Assembly: GCF_004214835.1 (NCBI RefSeq)
Contig: NZ_PIQJ01000001.1
Coordinates: 1,426,001-1,490,000 of the forward strand
DNA from: Pseudidiomarina tainanensis
GTDB taxonomy: Bacteria; Pseudomonadota; Gammaproteobacteria; Enterobacterales; Alteromonadaceae
Length of the DNA stretch: 64,000 nucleotides
Direction: 5' to 3'
Shown: positions 16,767 to 32,597 of the stretch, piece after piece
Layout of the letters: each line of letters opens with the position of its first letter
How positions within the stretch are numbered: the stretch's first letter is position 1
The notes under the pieces: generated by a model
The model's input: the letters and a program-made list of their open reading frames with translations, nothing else
Database searches by the model: none
Told to the model about the DNA's origin: nothing
Translations under genes and position numbers: made by a program

Positions 16767-17014
16767 AAGAGCGTTAATCGTTAATCGTCATTCGAAGTTT
16801 CCTTTCTAATATCTAATATCCAATAGCTAATATCCAGTTTCTTTTCACGCTAACTGTACGGAATTCAATCACCACGTCAATACCTTAATATTCATACACT
16901 TACAAACTTCAATGCAGCTAACTCACAGAGTTATCCACATAAATTGTGGAGAATTCACAGCGGCTTTGTCACAATGCAGTTACAGATGTAACAACCGCGA
17001 GAGATAATCAGCTA
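16767..17014. promoter_or_regulatory. intergenic region with short degenerate repeats and DnaA-box-like sites
   Basis: This 248-bp gap separates divergent yfbV and yffB-dapE. It contains a repeated GTTAATC string (16771-16794), a run of imperfect CTAATATC-type units (about 16805-16836) and, at 16931-16953, a perfect TTATCCACA followed after 5 bp by a near-consensus DnaA box in the opposite orientation. No RNA gene or longer ORF was seen. Confidence 0.6.
16931..16953. promoter_or_regulatory. inverted pair of DnaA-box-like sequences
   Basis: TTATCCACA at 16931-16939 is a perfect DnaA box. Bases 16945-16953 read TGTGGAGAA, one mismatch from the same box on the other strand. The 5-bp spacer makes the pair a near-palindrome, 62 bp upstream of the yffB start. 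DnaA binding is a reasonable inference but not shown. Confidence 0.5.
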
Positions 17015-26803: not shown

Positions 26804-27195
26804 TCCTAGATGAAAAAACTCGACAAATTCGATTTCTTGCACTGGCAAGCTATCTCGGTTTACTCGCCTTAATGATTATCTGGCAAGTTTGGTGTCAACG
26901 TGACAGCGAGTTTAGTGTGGTATTTCGGATTGGACTCTGGATAGTGCCGTTGCTATTCGCATTACCAGGTATGCTGAGAGGTAAACCATACACCTATGCT
27001 TGGGCGAATTTCATTTTAATGTGGTACTTTCTGCATAGTCTTACCATGCTCTATGTCGCGCCAGAACAAAGAGGCTTCGCTATCGCTGAGCTCGTGCTAA
27101 CCAGCGCGGCTTTTGTCGGGTGCACTTGGTATGCGCGACGTCAAGGTAAGGCTTTAGGCTTGGGCTTAAAGAAGCTAAAAGACAACTCTAAATAG
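26800..27195 (+). CDS. DUF2069 membrane protein
   Basis: A 131-residue integral membrane protein with about four hydrophobic segments (residues about 13-30, 42-57, 65-85 and 92-110) and a basic C-terminal tail. Central features LPGMLRGKPYTYAWANFILMW match the DUF2069 family, which is regularly encoded next to wrbA in gammaproteobacteria. Function unknown. Its 3' end overlaps the convergent hda gene by 8 bp. Confidence 0.82.
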   Translation: MILDEKTRQIRFLALASYLGLLALMIIWQVWCQRDSEFSVVFRIGLWIVPLLFALPGMLRGKPYTYAWANFILMWYFLHSLTMLYVAPEQRGFAIAELVLTSAAFVGCTWYARRQGKALGLGLKKLKDNSK

Positions 27196-27871
27196 CGAGA
27201 ACGTCCTTGATAAAAGGAATGGTTAAACGCCGTTTCGCTGCTATGGATGCCCGATCTAATCGGGCTAAACATACCAATAAACTTCGCATATTTCGCCCAA
27301 GTCGTTGCACCATAAACTGGGCTGCGTCGTCAGCTAAATGTAAACCCAGCGCTTTTGCGCGAACTTGCAAAGCTCGCGCCTTGTCTTCATCGGTGAGCGC
27401 ATGAACGTGCATACTCAATCCCCACTGCAAACGCGAATGGACATCAGCTATTGCTACCTGTAAGTGACTCGGTGCATGTTTTGCGGTGATGACAATACAA
27501 CCCCGCCCAGCATCCTTCACCCGGTTTAGCAACGCAAATAGCTCAAAACACCAATTTTCATTGGCACTGATGGCATCAATGTCGTCTAAGCAAATCAAAG
27601 AATAATGCTCAAGACCCTGTAAAATCTGTGGCTGCACTTGGTCATGTAATTCAGCCAGCGGTACGTACATTACTGCTTCTTCAGTATTCGCACACAAAGC
27701 ATGTAGGAGGTGCGTTTTACCCACGCCTTCGGCGCCCCAAAGATAAGTTAAACCATCAGGAAGCTGCTGTAATACCTGGATTAACTCCTGGTTCGCGCCT
27801 CGCACAAAGGTCGCAAACGTTTCGTCATCGGGAAGTTGAACGGCTAAAGGTAATTGCGCTATTGCACTCAA
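27188..27871 (-). CDS. hda: DnaA regulatory inactivator Hda
   Basis: A 227-residue AAA+ protein that, with the sliding clamp, stimulates ATP hydrolysis by DnaA (RIDA) and prevents over-initiation of replication. Clamp-binding QLPLAV is at residues 6-11, Walker A GAEGVGKTHLL is near 46-56, Walker B LICLDDID is near 92. Unlike E. coli Hda, the Walker A lysine is present. It overlaps the upstream DUF2066 gene by 4 bp, and a perfect DnaA box lies in front of that pair. Confidence 0.92.
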   Translation of the reverse strand: MSAIAQLPLAVQLPDDETFATFVRGANQELIQVLQQLPDGLTYLWGAEGVGKTHLLHALCANTEEAVMYVPLAELHDQVQPQILQGLEHYSLICLDDIDAISANENWCFELFALLNRVKDAGRGCIVITAKHAPSHLQVAIADVHSRLQWGLSMHVHALTDEDKARALQVRAKALGLHLADDAAQFMVQRLGRNMRSLLVCLARLDRASIAAKRRLTIPFIKDVLAI

Positions 27872-28947
27872 GACTGACTCCAGCGATAAACTGGCATTTC
27901 GAACTCAGACCGACGTTCTGGATTGATCGGAATGAACGTGCGACTCAAATCAATCGCCTGCATAATTTGTGCCGGGTCGGTTTGAATATACAACTCAAAT
28001 TCAGCTTCGTGCTCGCCATACTGCATAAGTTGGACACGATTCACTGACGGCAACTCGAGAAGTAACTTTTCAGCCCGTAATACATCCATAAACTGGCTCA
28101 AATCATTTACCTTTATCCGCCAAGTTCCTGCCATGTCTGCATTAGTACCGATTCGAAACCGCTGCGACAATTGTTGTGTGACGTCAGCTACTAACATACC
28201 GCCAAGTAACTCAGGTTGCATGGCACTCACTTCGCCGCGCCAGCGCATTCCGCCGAGTTCCAATGTCCAATCCAGCATCCATTCATCGCTCGTTATTGCA
28301 CTATCGGCTTGATATAGTCGTGCGACAACCACCCCATCAGCATCATATCGACTGCTTGCAAACGTAATCCTATCTTCAAAACGAGCCCACAAATCAACCA
28401 CTGAAATACTCATGGAGTCATTTAAATCTAGCAACGGCAATTTCACCGGTAAACCACGTGTTTGCGCAGCTTTTCGTAATTCATTGATGACCGGCCAGTC
28501 TTCACCGCCCCCCAGAATTTGCCGTTGTAAGTTTTCATCCTCAGCAACTACCCAAAACAATAATTCTGGGCGACGACTGCTCCAAACACCAGAATCCGCT
28601 TGTTGAATGACCCGGTCAATCTGAGGTTGGTCAAACTGCACCCACAACAACAGTTCATCAGCAGCTTGTTGATAACCATACTGAACCACAAAATTACGCA
28701 CATTTTGCAATGCTAATTGCACAGATTCATGCTCTAGAACTGCATCGTCGCCAGAAACTTTCAACAGCGTGTTTGTTAAAGCTGTGCGCAATGCTTCATT
28801 ACGTTCGCTGGTGGCTTGGCTGGTTACTGCCACACGAGCTTGATAAAGCTGTTTCACTTCAACGGCTGCATGCCCTGTTTGCAAAGGCGTGAGCAAATTA
28901 AGAGCGATTATAAATAATCCAATTACAGCGATTTTTAGGGTTCGCAT
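27868..28947 (-). CDS. DUF2066 family secreted protein
   Basis: A 359-residue protein with a signal peptide ending near GHAAVEV and a long soluble region of the DUF2066 type (RNEALRTALTNTLLKVSGDD, then NFVVQYGYQ). Function unknown; it is commonly encoded before hda. I chose ATG 28947, which has GAGG 5 nt upstream and starts at the signal peptide. The in-frame ATG at 29004 would add 19 residues in front of the signal peptide. Expected periplasmic. Confidence 0.85.
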   Translation of the reverse strand: MRTLKIAVIGLFIIALNLLTPLQTGHAAVEVKQLYQARVAVTSQATSERNEALRTALTNTLLKVSGDDAVLEHESVQLALQNVRNFVVQYGYQQAADELLLWVQFDQPQIDRVIQQADSGVWSSRRPELLFWVVAEDENLQRQILGGGEDWPVINELRKAAQTRGLPVKLPLLDLNDSMSISVVDLWARFEDRITFASSRYDADGVVVARLYQADSAITSDEWMLDWTLELGGMRWRGEVSAMQPELLGGMLVADVTQQLSQRFRIGTNADMAGTWRIKVNDLSQFMDVLRAEKLLLELPSVNRVQLMQYGEHEAEFELYIQTDPAQIMQAIDLSRTFIPINPERRSEFEMPVYRWSQS

Positions 28948-29013
28948 AGCTACCTCATCACAACATCTTGTGCTCATCATAAACAGCCCTATGCTTGCTC
29001 GCAAGTAACAAGC

Positions 29014-29022
29014 TGTGGATAA
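29014..29022 (-). promoter_or_regulatory. perfect DnaA box upstream of DUF2066-hda
   Basis: The plus strand reads TGTGGATAA, i.e. TTATCCACA on the minus strand. It lies 67 bp before the DUF2066 start and 80 bp before the divergent MFS start. A perfect match to the high-affinity consensus in front of the operon for the DnaA inactivator suggests feedback control by DnaA; this is inference. Confidence 0.55.
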
Positions 29023-29101
29023 CCTCTTGGCGTTTCCGAAAATTTACCAACGTGATAAACTCGCTCAATAAATTCATCGTGACAAACTCAAGGATCGTCT
29101 C

Positions 29102-30418
29102 ATGCTTAAGCAACAATTGCGCGCTATAAGCTCTTTACTGACAAGTATTACGCTTATTGGTATTTGCACCGGCATGACCAGTACGTTGTTGAGTTTACGT
29201 GCCACGATTGAAAACTTTGGTACACTCACCACCGGTATCATCATGTCAGCCTATTTTATTGGCTTCTTGTTCGGTACCACGCGCGCCCCCAAAGATATTC
29301 GTCGAGTGGGATATATTCGAGCCTTTGGCGGCCTTGCTGCGCTAGCGGCAGCCTCTATCCTCATTCAAGCAATATGGATTGACCCTATCGTATGGTTTGT
29401 CATGCGCTTTCTAACTGGCTTTGCGATTTCAGCTATCTTCGTGATCGTTGAAAGTTGGCTGAACACTATGGCCGATAACAAGAATCGCGGCACCTTGCTT
29501 TCTGTTTACTTGGTGCTGATTTATGGTGGATTAGTCGCTGGCCAGCTCATTCTTGGTATCACCGACCCAGCTGGGTTTATTGCCTTTGCGTTGGTTGCGT
29601 TGTTAATTAACTTGTCGCTCATTCCAATTTTAATCTCCGTTACCGTTGAACCAACAACGCATGAACCGCGCAAAGTTGCTATCAGTAGCCTACTAAAAGT
29701 AGTGCCGCTCGGAATGGTGAATGCTTTCATCATGCAAGCATGTTATGCAATGTTTTACGGTATCGGGCCAATGTATGCCACCTACATTGGCTTATCAGTG
29801 GCGCAAGTATCACTATTTATGGCGTCTTTTATACTCGGCGGCATGCTTGCCCAAGCGCCAATCGGTCTGCTCTCAGATCGTATCGATCGACGCATCGTCA
29901 TGTCGTTCTGTGCAGGTACGGCGGCCATCATGGCGTTTGTCTTATCGCAACTAGATGCATCGGTCGCTTGGCTCATTTACTTATGCGTTGGCCTCTTTGG
30001 CGCGTGCGCGTTACCGCTTTATTCTCTCGGTATGGCACATACCAATGATTTTCTTGAAAAGGACCAGATGGTTGGCGCAACTGGCGCTATCATCAAAGTC
30101 GGTGGTATCGGTTCGATTATCGGCGCCCCTTCGGTCGCCGCCCTCATGCAATTTGGCGCAGTGAATTACTTCTTCTTATTAATCATGGTACTCACCAGTA
30201 TTGTTTGCGGTTACTCGTTATATCGCGTTACCAAACGAGCGAAAGCTGGCGATCAATCGCATAGCGCGTACGCAATGTTGGCACCCACACAAACATCTGA
30301 TGAGCTTTTAACAACGTTAGCGAATGAGCAAGAACTGTTGGATGAAGAGTATCAGGAAGCCCAGTTAGACGCTGAATCACAAGATGATCAGCGCCCTTCC
30401 GGTGGTGCAAGCGTTTAG
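29102..30418 (+). CDS. MFS transporter (YcaD-like)
   Basis: A 438-residue carrier with about 12 membrane helices. The loop after helix 2 (GTTRAPKDIRRVGYIRAFG) and the second-half motif GLLSDRIDRRIVM are typical of the major facilitator superfamily, and the layout resembles YcaD-type members. Substrate unknown. About 60 hydrophilic, acidic residues follow the last helix. AAGGA precedes the ATG by 7 nt. Convergent with pgm, overlapping 4 bp. Confidence 0.85.
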   Translation: MLKQQLRAISSLLTSITLIGICTGMTSTLLSLRATIENFGTLTTGIIMSAYFIGFLFGTTRAPKDIRRVGYIRAFGGLAALAAASILIQAIWIDPIVWFVMRFLTGFAISAIFVIVESWLNTMADNKNRGTLLSVYLVLIYGGLVAGQLILGITDPAGFIAFALVALLINLSLIPILISVTVEPTTHEPRKVAISSLLKVVPLGMVNAFIMQACYAMFYGIGPMYATYIGLSVAQVSLFMASFILGGMLAQAPIGLLSDRIDRRIVMSFCAGTAAIMAFVLSQLDASVAWLIYLCVGLFGACALPLYSLGMAHTNDFLEKDQMVGATGAIIKVGGIGSIIGAPSVAALMQFGAVNYFFLLIMVLTSIVCGYSLYRVTKRAKAGDQSHSAYAMLAPTQTSDELLTTLANEQELLDEEYQEAQLDAESQDDQRPSGGASV

Positions 30419-32055
30419 GCTTGCACCCAACTGGTGACGAGTTGCTGAGCTTGTTCAGCCAGCGCATCTAAGTGCTCGGCACTGACAAAACTCTCACAAT
30501 AAATTTTATAAACTGGTTCGGTACCCGATGGTCGAGCTGCAAACCAACCATTTGCAGTGGTCACTTTAACTCCACCAATTAATGCATCATTTGCCGGAGC
30601 TTTGGTGGTGATAGCCATGACTTCATCACCAGCCAACTCAGATACCTTGAGCTTGTAGGCACGAATACCGCTAAAACCAGCATTCATCTCAGCCGATGAC
30701 GCCACATCAATACGTTTGTAATACGCCGTACCATGTTCGGCGCAGAGTCCATCATAATATTGACTCGGGTTTTTCCCGGTAACGGCGCAAATTTCTGCCG
30801 CCAACAAGGCTAAGATAATGCCATCTTTATCGGTTGACCATGCTCGCCCCTCGCGGTCAAGAAAACTGGCACCAGCGCTTTCTTCACCGCCAAAGGCCGT
30901 TGTTTCTGCGAATAGCTCTTGGGCAAACCATTTGAAACCAACTGGCATTTCTCGCAACTCACGCTGATTCTGCGCCACAACACGATCAATCATAGCGCTT
31001 GAGACGAGCGTTTTTCCGATAGCGAGCTCAGGTTTCCAGTTACGGTGCTTGCACAAATAATCAATAGCAACGGCAAGATAGTGATTTGGATTCATCAAAC
31101 CGTGTGTTGGCGTGACAATCCCATGGCGGTCATAATCTGGGTCATTACCCACAGCAATATCGTATTGGTCTTTAAGCTTAAGTAAGCTGGCCATGGCATA
31201 GGGCGATGAGCAATCCATACGGATTTTGCCGTCCTTATCTAGGCTCATAAAGCGGAAGCTCGCATCGACGTCGGCATGATGAACCTCGATATTTAGGCCA
31301 TAGTGCTCAGCAATGAGAGCCCAATAAGCGGCACCTGCACCACCCATCGCATCAACACCAATTCGCAATTTTGCGTCCACAATGGCTTGCATATCAATCA
31401 CTTCATGCAAACTCTCAATATAGTTTTTACGCCAGTCTACTTGCTTCAACTTTTTACTTGCACGTGCTTCTGCATAAGAAACAGCGTTCACGCCCATCAA
31501 CTCCGAAGATAACAACGCGTTGGCATATTTTTCGATGGTTTTAGTAGCATCTGTATCAGCAGGCCCACCATGCGGCGGGTTGTATTTAAAACCGCCATCG
31601 GTTGGTGGGTTATGCGATGGAGTAATCACCACCCCATCACATAAATCTTTGCTACGCCCACGGTTGTATCGCAAAATCGCGTGGCTAATCACTGGTGTTG
31701 GCGTGTAACCATCATCCGTTTGAATATGTACTTCAATACCATTACCAATAAATACTTCTAGTGCAGTCATGTACGCTGCTTCTGACAATGCATGAGTATC
31801 GCGACCAAGTAACAAAGGTCCGGTAATACCCTGCTCTTCGCGATAAGCAACTAAAGCCTGGCTTATTGCGAGAATGTGAGCTTCATTAAATGAACTAGTG
31901 AGTGCGCAACCGCGGTGCCCTGAGGTACCAAATTTAACTTGCTGTTGTGGGTTTCGTGGGTCAACTTCGTTAACAAAATAGGCACTAACCAGTTGGGCAA
32001 TATTGGTTAAATCTTCAGCTGCTGCCGGTTGTCCGGCGCGAGGATGCAAAGCCAT
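30415..32055 (-). CDS. pgm: phosphoglucomutase, alpha-D-glucose phosphate-specific
   Basis: A 546-residue enzyme converting glucose-1-phosphate and glucose-6-phosphate. The active-site serine lies in ITPSHNPPTDGG near residues 143-154; KFGTSGHRG near 42-50, the metal loop GNDPDYDRHG and the sugar loop FGGEESAG are all present, and the phosphate-binding ARPSGTEPVYK is near the end. It starts at the seqA stop (1-bp overlap), and seqA-pgm is the conserved enterobacterial pair. Confidence 0.95.
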   Translation of the reverse strand: MALHPRAGQPAAAEDLTNIAQLVSAYFVNEVDPRNPQQQVKFGTSGHRGCALTSSFNEAHILAISQALVAYREEQGITGPLLLGRDTHALSEAAYMTALEVFIGNGIEVHIQTDDGYTPTPVISHAILRYNRGRSKDLCDGVVITPSHNPPTDGGFKYNPPHGGPADTDATKTIEKYANALLSSELMGVNAVSYAEARASKKLKQVDWRKNYIESLHEVIDMQAIVDAKLRIGVDAMGGAGAAYWALIAEHYGLNIEVHHADVDASFRFMSLDKDGKIRMDCSSPYAMASLLKLKDQYDIAVGNDPDYDRHGIVTPTHGLMNPNHYLAVAIDYLCKHRNWKPELAIGKTLVSSAMIDRVVAQNQRELREMPVGFKWFAQELFAETTAFGGEESAGASFLDREGRAWSTDKDGIILALLAAEICAVTGKNPSQYYDGLCAEHGTAYYKRIDVASSAEMNAGFSGIRAYKLKVSELAGDEVMAITTKAPANDALIGGVKVTTANGWFAARPSGTEPVYKIYCESFVSAEHLDALAEQAQQLVTSWVQA

Positions 32056-32597
32056 TATAAAAAGTCCCTAATTTTTTCTGCATGTTCCTGTGAGTAACCC
32101 AATTCGAGTGCAACTTGGGTTAGCATTGATTTCTTACGCGTGGTGTTATTGTTGGTTACCACATAATAAGGGGCATCCGGAATTTGTTTGGGATTCGTAC
32201 TCGTTCCCGAGGCCTCGAGTTCTGCCTCAGTTTTTGCAAAATACTGCCGATCACGTCCACTAATCTGCAACACCGCATCAAACTTTTTGCTATGGCATTT
32301 ATAAAGCATGCTCAAGATATATAAAAAACGAGCGACAATACTCCGTTGACCAGCCAGATCGGCGCGCGTCATCACATCAAAAATGGTGCGTCGGCCTAGG
32401 CCTTCGCTATTATCCGCTGCTACTGCAGCTGCGTCATCGACTTCGGGCATGGCAATAACCGGTTGTCCGGTTGCCTGCTCAGCTGGGCCTAGGCCAAGTA
32501 AACGACGTAAGATTGCCGATGCGCTCTCGCCAATATGTTGAGTATGGCTGGCAATATAGCGGTATAATTCATCATCAATTTCAATGCGTTTGGTCAT
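32055..32597 (-). CDS. seqA: replication initiation negative modulator SeqA
   Basis: A 180-residue protein that binds hemimethylated GATC sites and sequesters the origin after initiation. The N-terminal oligomerisation domain (MTKRIEIDDELYRYIASHT) and the C-terminal DNA-binding domain with YFAKTEAELEASG and NTTRKKSMLTQV are clear. The linker between them is Ala/Asp-rich. It needs Dam methylation, so the host likely has dam elsewhere. First gene of the seqA-pgm pair, divergent from ybfF. Confidence 0.94.
   Translation of the reverse strand: MTKRIEIDDELYRYIASHTQHIGESASAILRRLLGLGPAEQATGQPVIAMPEVDDAAAVAADNSEGLGRRTIFDVMTRADLAGQRSIVARFLYILSMLYKCHSKKFDAVLQISGRDRQYFAKTEAELEASGTSTNPKQIPDAPYYVVTNNNTTRKKSMLTQVALELGYSQEHAEKIRDFL

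Follow-up and report, generated by a model that had tools for sequence, protein, structure and literature searches.

A conserved DnaA box beside a predicted promoter of the DUF2066-hda operon in three genera including Pseudidiomarina

The stretch of DNA considered here (64,000 nt of the Pseudidiomarina tainanensis genome, hereafter the window) carries on its minus strand a gene for a DUF2066 protein (27868..28947; PF09839, 219.3 bits), the first gene of a predicted operon. It is followed on the same strand by hda (27188..27871), which encodes the DnaA regulatory inactivator (NCBIfam TIGR03420, 249.7 bits against a cut-off of 194.8, with a match to Hda_lid). A QLPLAV sequence near the N terminus of this Hda is presumably a clamp-binding-like motif. 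The apparent TTG start of hda overlaps the DUF2066 stop and, given this overlap, the two genes are predicted to be co-transcribed; translation from such a start may further brake Hda. Elsewhere in the genus, the hda start codon is TTG, GTG, or ATG at or near the same place. The closest named DUF2066 locus is that of Pseudidiomarina marina (88% identity). Divergent from the operon is a gene for an MFS transporter (29102..30418, plus strand; PF07690). About 4 kb from hda, at 32055-32597, lies seqA (NF008389, 196.0 bits, cut-off 185), which encodes a negative regulator of replication initiation.

The DUF2066 open reading frame extends up to a TTG at 29004. We place its start at the ATG at 28947 because the −10 element described below falls between the two. 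With the MFS gene starting at the ATG at 29102, the intergenic gap is 154 bp long, as the original prediction had it. The minus strand of this gap holds the predicted DnaA box, TTATCCACA (TGTGGATAA on the plus strand), at 29014..29022, and its sequence is as first reported; the distance from the box to the DUF2066 start, initially given as 67 bp, is 66 nt by our count. The box agrees with TTWTNCACA at nine of nine positions and is the best form of that consensus. Pattern scans, including those that allowed up to one mismatch, find this one consensus DnaA box in the gap.

A scan by consensus alone of 28900-29150 returns a single sigma70-like site, TTGCGA-17-TATGAT, on the minus strand, with the −35-like hexamer at 28999..29004 and the −10-like hexamer at 28976..28981. 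Shuffled sequences yield 0.4 promoter-like sites (SD 0.8) versus the one found, so that, taken alone, the scan does not exceed chance and proves little; the weight of the promoter call thus rests on conservation. In all 62 genomes compared (see below), the pattern TTGCnn-17-TAnnAT is present, and CTTGC is invariant in the 43 nonredundant sequences. Both hexamers expected of a sigma70 promoter are present and conserved, with a spacer in the 16-18 nt range. The −35 element is considered weak because its last two positions vary, with only TTGC conserved. A transcription start may plausibly be placed at the A at 28969, 7 nt after the −10 element, a position suggested by the spacing; the corresponding column of the alignment carries 1.05 bits, compared with 0.1-0.3 in neighboring columns. 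Counted from this predicted start, the box is centered at about −49.

The genomes compared comprise 26 of the genus of the window (Pseudidiomarina/Idiomarina), 19 of a second genus (g28), and 17 of a third (g11). DUF2066 was located in all of them and is followed by a match to Hda at all 62 loci. Some records were set aside to avoid counting a genome twice: L089 (a second piece of G122, which is represented by L091), L244-L247 (second pieces from g11), and seven named records that are partly duplicates (L031-L037), all seven of which have a perfect box at the expected place. One record, L100, lacks a DUF2066 match and its genome was counted via L234. L044 and L047 yielded no in-frame start, and for these two we relied on the projected one.

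Absence of the box from close relatives had been named at the outset as grounds for giving up the original prediction. What we find is a perfect box upstream of DUF2066-hda in 56 of the 62 genomes, spread over all three genera (24/26 in the genus of the window, 19/19 in g28, and 13/17 in g11). It is retained in g28 and g11 even though their DUF2066 proteins are only ~26%-38% identical to that of the window. In four g11 genomes, the box at this position is decayed (CTTTCCACA, CTATTCACA, and, in two genomes, ATTTCCACA), and two genomes of the genus of the window (G131 and G137) have no box but keep the promoter. As 2 of 26 genomes lack it and 4 of 17 have it in decayed form, the site is dispensable in those genomes. 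When the labels are mapped onto a tree of the MFS protein, they require two changes if decayed boxes are counted as boxes and three otherwise. The four decayed boxes form one clade in this tree, which has no inferred root, and the two genomes without a box are not firmly placed (one is a long branch). The simplest reading of this unrooted tree is an ancestral box with few losses.

Information content was calculated from 43 nonredundant sequences chosen out of all 62, including rows without a box. The alignment was anchored on the perfect box where present and on CTTGC for the other six rows; both anchors yield the same alignment, because all 56 perfect-box genomes have the same 17-nt distance from the start of the box to CTTGC. 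The columns of the box average 1.63 bits, compared with 0.25 for the 50 columns upstream and 0.27 for the spacer between the −35 and −10 elements. Conservation takes in all nine box positions together and falls off abruptly on the upstream side. Invariant spacing relative to a conserved promoter-like sequence strongly supports the idea that this is a regulatory site.

How surprising is the box by count alone? Under a first-order model, ~0.0012-0.0013 perfect boxes are expected in the 154-bp gap (both strands). The claim that a chance 9-mer would be uncommon thus stands for one chosen gap (~0.001), but lapses when all gaps of the genome are considered, among which such a match is unremarkable: ~20-22 perfect boxes are expected in the 2.37-Mb genome by the same model, and we observed 30 (14 for the reversed pattern). 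In the window, the perfect 9-mer occurs three times against a model expectation of 0.54; looser patterns are at chance level (TTWTNCACA, seven observed and 9.0 expected; boxes with up to one mismatch, 16 observed and 15.2 expected). The genome-wide expectation and the lack of enrichment of looser patterns are what one would cite for a functionless chance match. The box rises above chance owing to its conservation, not its count, and in-place retention across three genera makes a chance match extremely improbable. We consider it ruled out, unless another factor accounts for all of the conservation.

The genomic distribution of perfect boxes adds context. Seven of the 30 lie outside open reading frames, with 1.8 expected from the non-ORF share of the window. 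The rule used (ORFs of at least 90 amino acids, no annotation) is crude, and some boxes near listed ORF starts (e.g., L005) may be intergenic as well. By this rule, the seven sit in only five gaps: between mnmG and mioC, the inferred oriC (two boxes); before dnaA; adjoining tRNA-Asn-like sequences (two boxes); between yfbV and an arsC-like gene, in the window; and upstream of hda. The company that the hda gap keeps among box-bearing gaps, namely that between mnmG and mioC and that preceding dnaA, is telling.

Two of these gaps contain clusters that deserve a description of their own. At 16908-16977 of the window, between yfbV and an ArsC/Spx-like gene, is a noncoding TTATCCACA, separated by a 5-nt spacer from TGTGGAGAA in the opposed orientation, and then in most cases an end of TTCACA or TCCACA. 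This cluster is present in 24 of 26 genomes of the genus, and the opposed pair is invariant in the 24 aligned. The core of DARS is described as having three boxes, the first two opposed (PMC8682772), a layout that the cluster recalls; it is a candidate DnaA-reactivating or DnaA-titrating site in the same window as hda. A blastn search for likeness to E. coli gave no match at E≤10 among 20,395 records, a result that is little informative given the 73-base query. The second cluster, near tRNA-Asn-like sequences (L014, 1501-1570; G000 contig C1, 971045-971114), has TTATCCACA followed by TTATCCACT-AAATC-TGTGGATAA. Its first and last boxes are invariant in 25 aligned genomes, and the middle one varies in a few. 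By layout, this is a putative DARS- or datA-like site. Elsewhere, TTATCCACAGCTGGTTAA recurs, among the matches listed, in many g18 genomes (e.g., G017, G063, G186, and G289) and in a few of g11, g24, and g25, and is probably another conserved DnaA-box site.

Returning to the hda gap, conservation runs past the 9-mer through TTGTYACTTGC, so it may be asked whether the whole conserved 22-mer is bound by some other regulator and resembles a DnaA box by accident. The 22-mer does occur just once in the genome, with no other copy within three mismatches. Against such a regulator, the nine positions of the DnaA box are kept together, with conservation ending abruptly at their upstream side, and the 9-mer recurs both in the inferred oriC gap and in front of dnaA. 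We regard an accidental likeness as highly unlikely. The block between the box and the −35 element (TTGTTA at 29006..29011 on the minus strand, TTGTYA in the alignment) carries 0.7-1.8 bits per column and could belong to another factor. It is found in 55 of 56 perfect-box genomes (the exception, L090, has TTGTGA) and in two of the six genomes without a perfect box; the block is altered in the two genomes that lack the box and in two of those in which it is decayed (L045, and L234 through a single letter). We considered whether TTGTYA is a second DnaA box and rejected this, as there is no resemblance.

The original prediction called for a comparison across Alteromonadales, and its outcome was divided: conservation holds within the three genera and fails in the rest of the GTDB family. 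DUF2066 was found in 117 of 118 sampled family genomes (G029 had no match), nine of them from the three genera and 108 from others. The box is absent from this place in all 108, of which 22 were scanned to 300 nt upstream and 86 up to ~560 nt and again to ~360 nt. TTWTNCACA occurs somewhere in the scanned stretch in seven of the 86 (six in the shorter scan, plus G098 at −436 in the longer one), and one of these seven is a perfect box (G033, ~230 nt upstream, on the other strand). Beyond the family, 1,400 nt upstream of each of 30 hda loci from other families of the order were scanned, and none contains TTATCCACA. These 42 kb contain two degenerate matches, TTTTTCACA at 1,201 nt and TTATTCACA at 1,043 nt upstream, and a reversed control gives one. 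The 22-mer, written with NN and N at the variable places and allowing up to one mismatch, is found in one of 158 genomes of the order, that of the window itself; this sample contained no further genome of the three genera. An 18-mer with up to two mismatches matches somewhere in at least 175 of 395 family genomes and is too permissive to be informative. The 108 family genomes that lack the box at this place rule out a feature common to Alteromonadales, and absence from these and from the 30 loci of the order makes the element lineage-specific. It looks like an innovation of one lineage.

Because the gap is shared, the box could instead serve the divergent MFS gene, alone or additionally, with its closeness to the hda promoter being incidental. 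All 62 genomes with this arrangement have the MFS gene as the divergent neighbor, whereas outside the lineage none of 138 loci has it beside DUF2066 (139 were provided, but the one match, L135, is a g11 genome), although 86 of the 138 reach only ~560 nt upstream. As the MFS gene thus accompanies the box, synteny cannot separate the two targets. Visual inspection shows a −10-like TAAACT at 29056-29061 that is oriented toward the MFS gene and would put the box near −50 of an MFS promoter as well, although the promoter scan did not report this site. The MFS side of the gap is also poorly conserved (0.25 bits). Most useful is the spacing: the projected MFS start lies anywhere between 66 and 126 nt from the box, whereas the distance from the box to the hda-side promoter is fixed, and this points to DUF2066-hda. 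The variable distance disfavors the MFS gene as sole target, and a role for the box at that gene is, in our judgment, improbable.

We therefore turn to DnaA acting on hda. The DnaA of this genome contains DHTTV, which we take to be its DNA-binding signature. This motif, together with the two occurrences of the same 9-mer in the inferred oriC gap, makes binding of DnaA to the box likely. It is, we judge, quite probable that DnaA controls hda in one direction or the other. The form that we favor, with a probability of roughly 0.55, is that the DUF2066-hda operon is driven by a DnaA-activated sigma70 promoter that is part of a negative feedback loop. DnaA would bind the high-affinity box, which spans about −53 to −45 and lies a little ahead of the weak −35 element, and alter transcription of hda, most likely upward, so that more DnaA would give more Hda. 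Hda, with the sliding clamp, would then convert DnaA-ATP to DnaA-ADP, closing a homeostatic loop. The box, its conservation and fixed spacing, the promoter-like sequence, and the adjacency of hda to DUF2066 are observed; we infer promoter use, binding, activation over repression, and the loop itself. Activation is favored because the box is upstream of the core promoter, in fixed phase to a −35 element that is poor, and because a precedent is available from Caulobacter.

The opposite sign must also be weighed. DnaA could bind the box and repress DUF2066-hda, by oligomerizing toward the −35 element or by hindering RNA polymerase. Position alone does not fix the sign, since at E. coli nrdAB it is DnaA at promoter boxes that is thought to hinder the polymerase (PMC8682772). 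E. coli dnaA, which has a box between its two promoters, is reported to be under repression by its own product (PMC8203912). A second DnaA could be guided by the conserved TTGTYA that separates the box from the −35 element. Against repression, the box is upstream of the weak −35 element instead of overlapping the core promoter, scans for the consensus show no further box over the −35 or −10 element, and the hda-type precedent in Caulobacter is one of activation (PMC3193534). Repression seems to us unlikely, while deserving to be taken seriously. Were it the case, more DnaA would mean less Hda and more DnaA-ATP, that is, a switch-like rather than a homeostatic loop.

To our knowledge, models of replication timing seldom consider that the supply of Hda may be regulated. 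One modeling paper does name growth-rate-dependent hda expression as a possible mechanism (PMC3309966). A conserved DnaA site on the hda promoter would mean that, in these marine bacteria, the supply of Hda depends on DnaA. Species with intact, decayed, and missing boxes permit direct comparison. A larger picture can be drawn, which we offer tentatively and hold with some doubt: a Gammaproteobacterial lineage may have wired hda under DnaA by one box beside the −35 element, independently of Caulobacter, such that the capacity for RIDA tracks DnaA, the two box-less species are natural mutants of the loop, and TTGTYA is a second part of the DnaA-activator site.

The presence of DnaA boxes in promoters of replication-linked genes is shared with E. 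coli dnaA and nrdAB, from which the arrangement differs in target and detail. DnaA represses its own gene in E. coli (PMC8203912), whereas nrdAB, for which inhibition by ATP-DnaA is the accepted view, carries at least two boxes (PMC8682772). The hda genes of other families in the order (RIDA), whose products belong to the same protein family (TIGR03420), are without TTATCCACA at the 30 loci scanned. Searches of the open-licence PMC literature turned up no description of a DnaA box upstream of hda in these bacteria. The closest known system is hdaA of Caulobacter crescentus, which DnaA directly activates at a promoter containing as many as six boxes, as supported by reporter data (PMC3193534); this activation is also covered in PMC8203912. 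Like hdaA, the operon described here has a DnaA-box promoter in front of an Hda-family inactivator: it encodes a true Hda, and the box is placed to act on its promoter. In Caulobacter, the level of DnaA feeds into that of the inactivator, and the same may be proposed for the hda of the window. Unlike hdaA, the promoter here has a single box rather than several, which limits the likeness to the Caulobacter promoter but not to DnaA-regulated hda-type promoters generally. It also belongs to a distant bacterial class, has an operon led by DUF2066, and is known from its sequence. A DnaA-controlled gene for an Hda-type protein is thus already established in Caulobacter, and what appears to be new is a conserved single-box version in a Gammaproteobacterial lineage.
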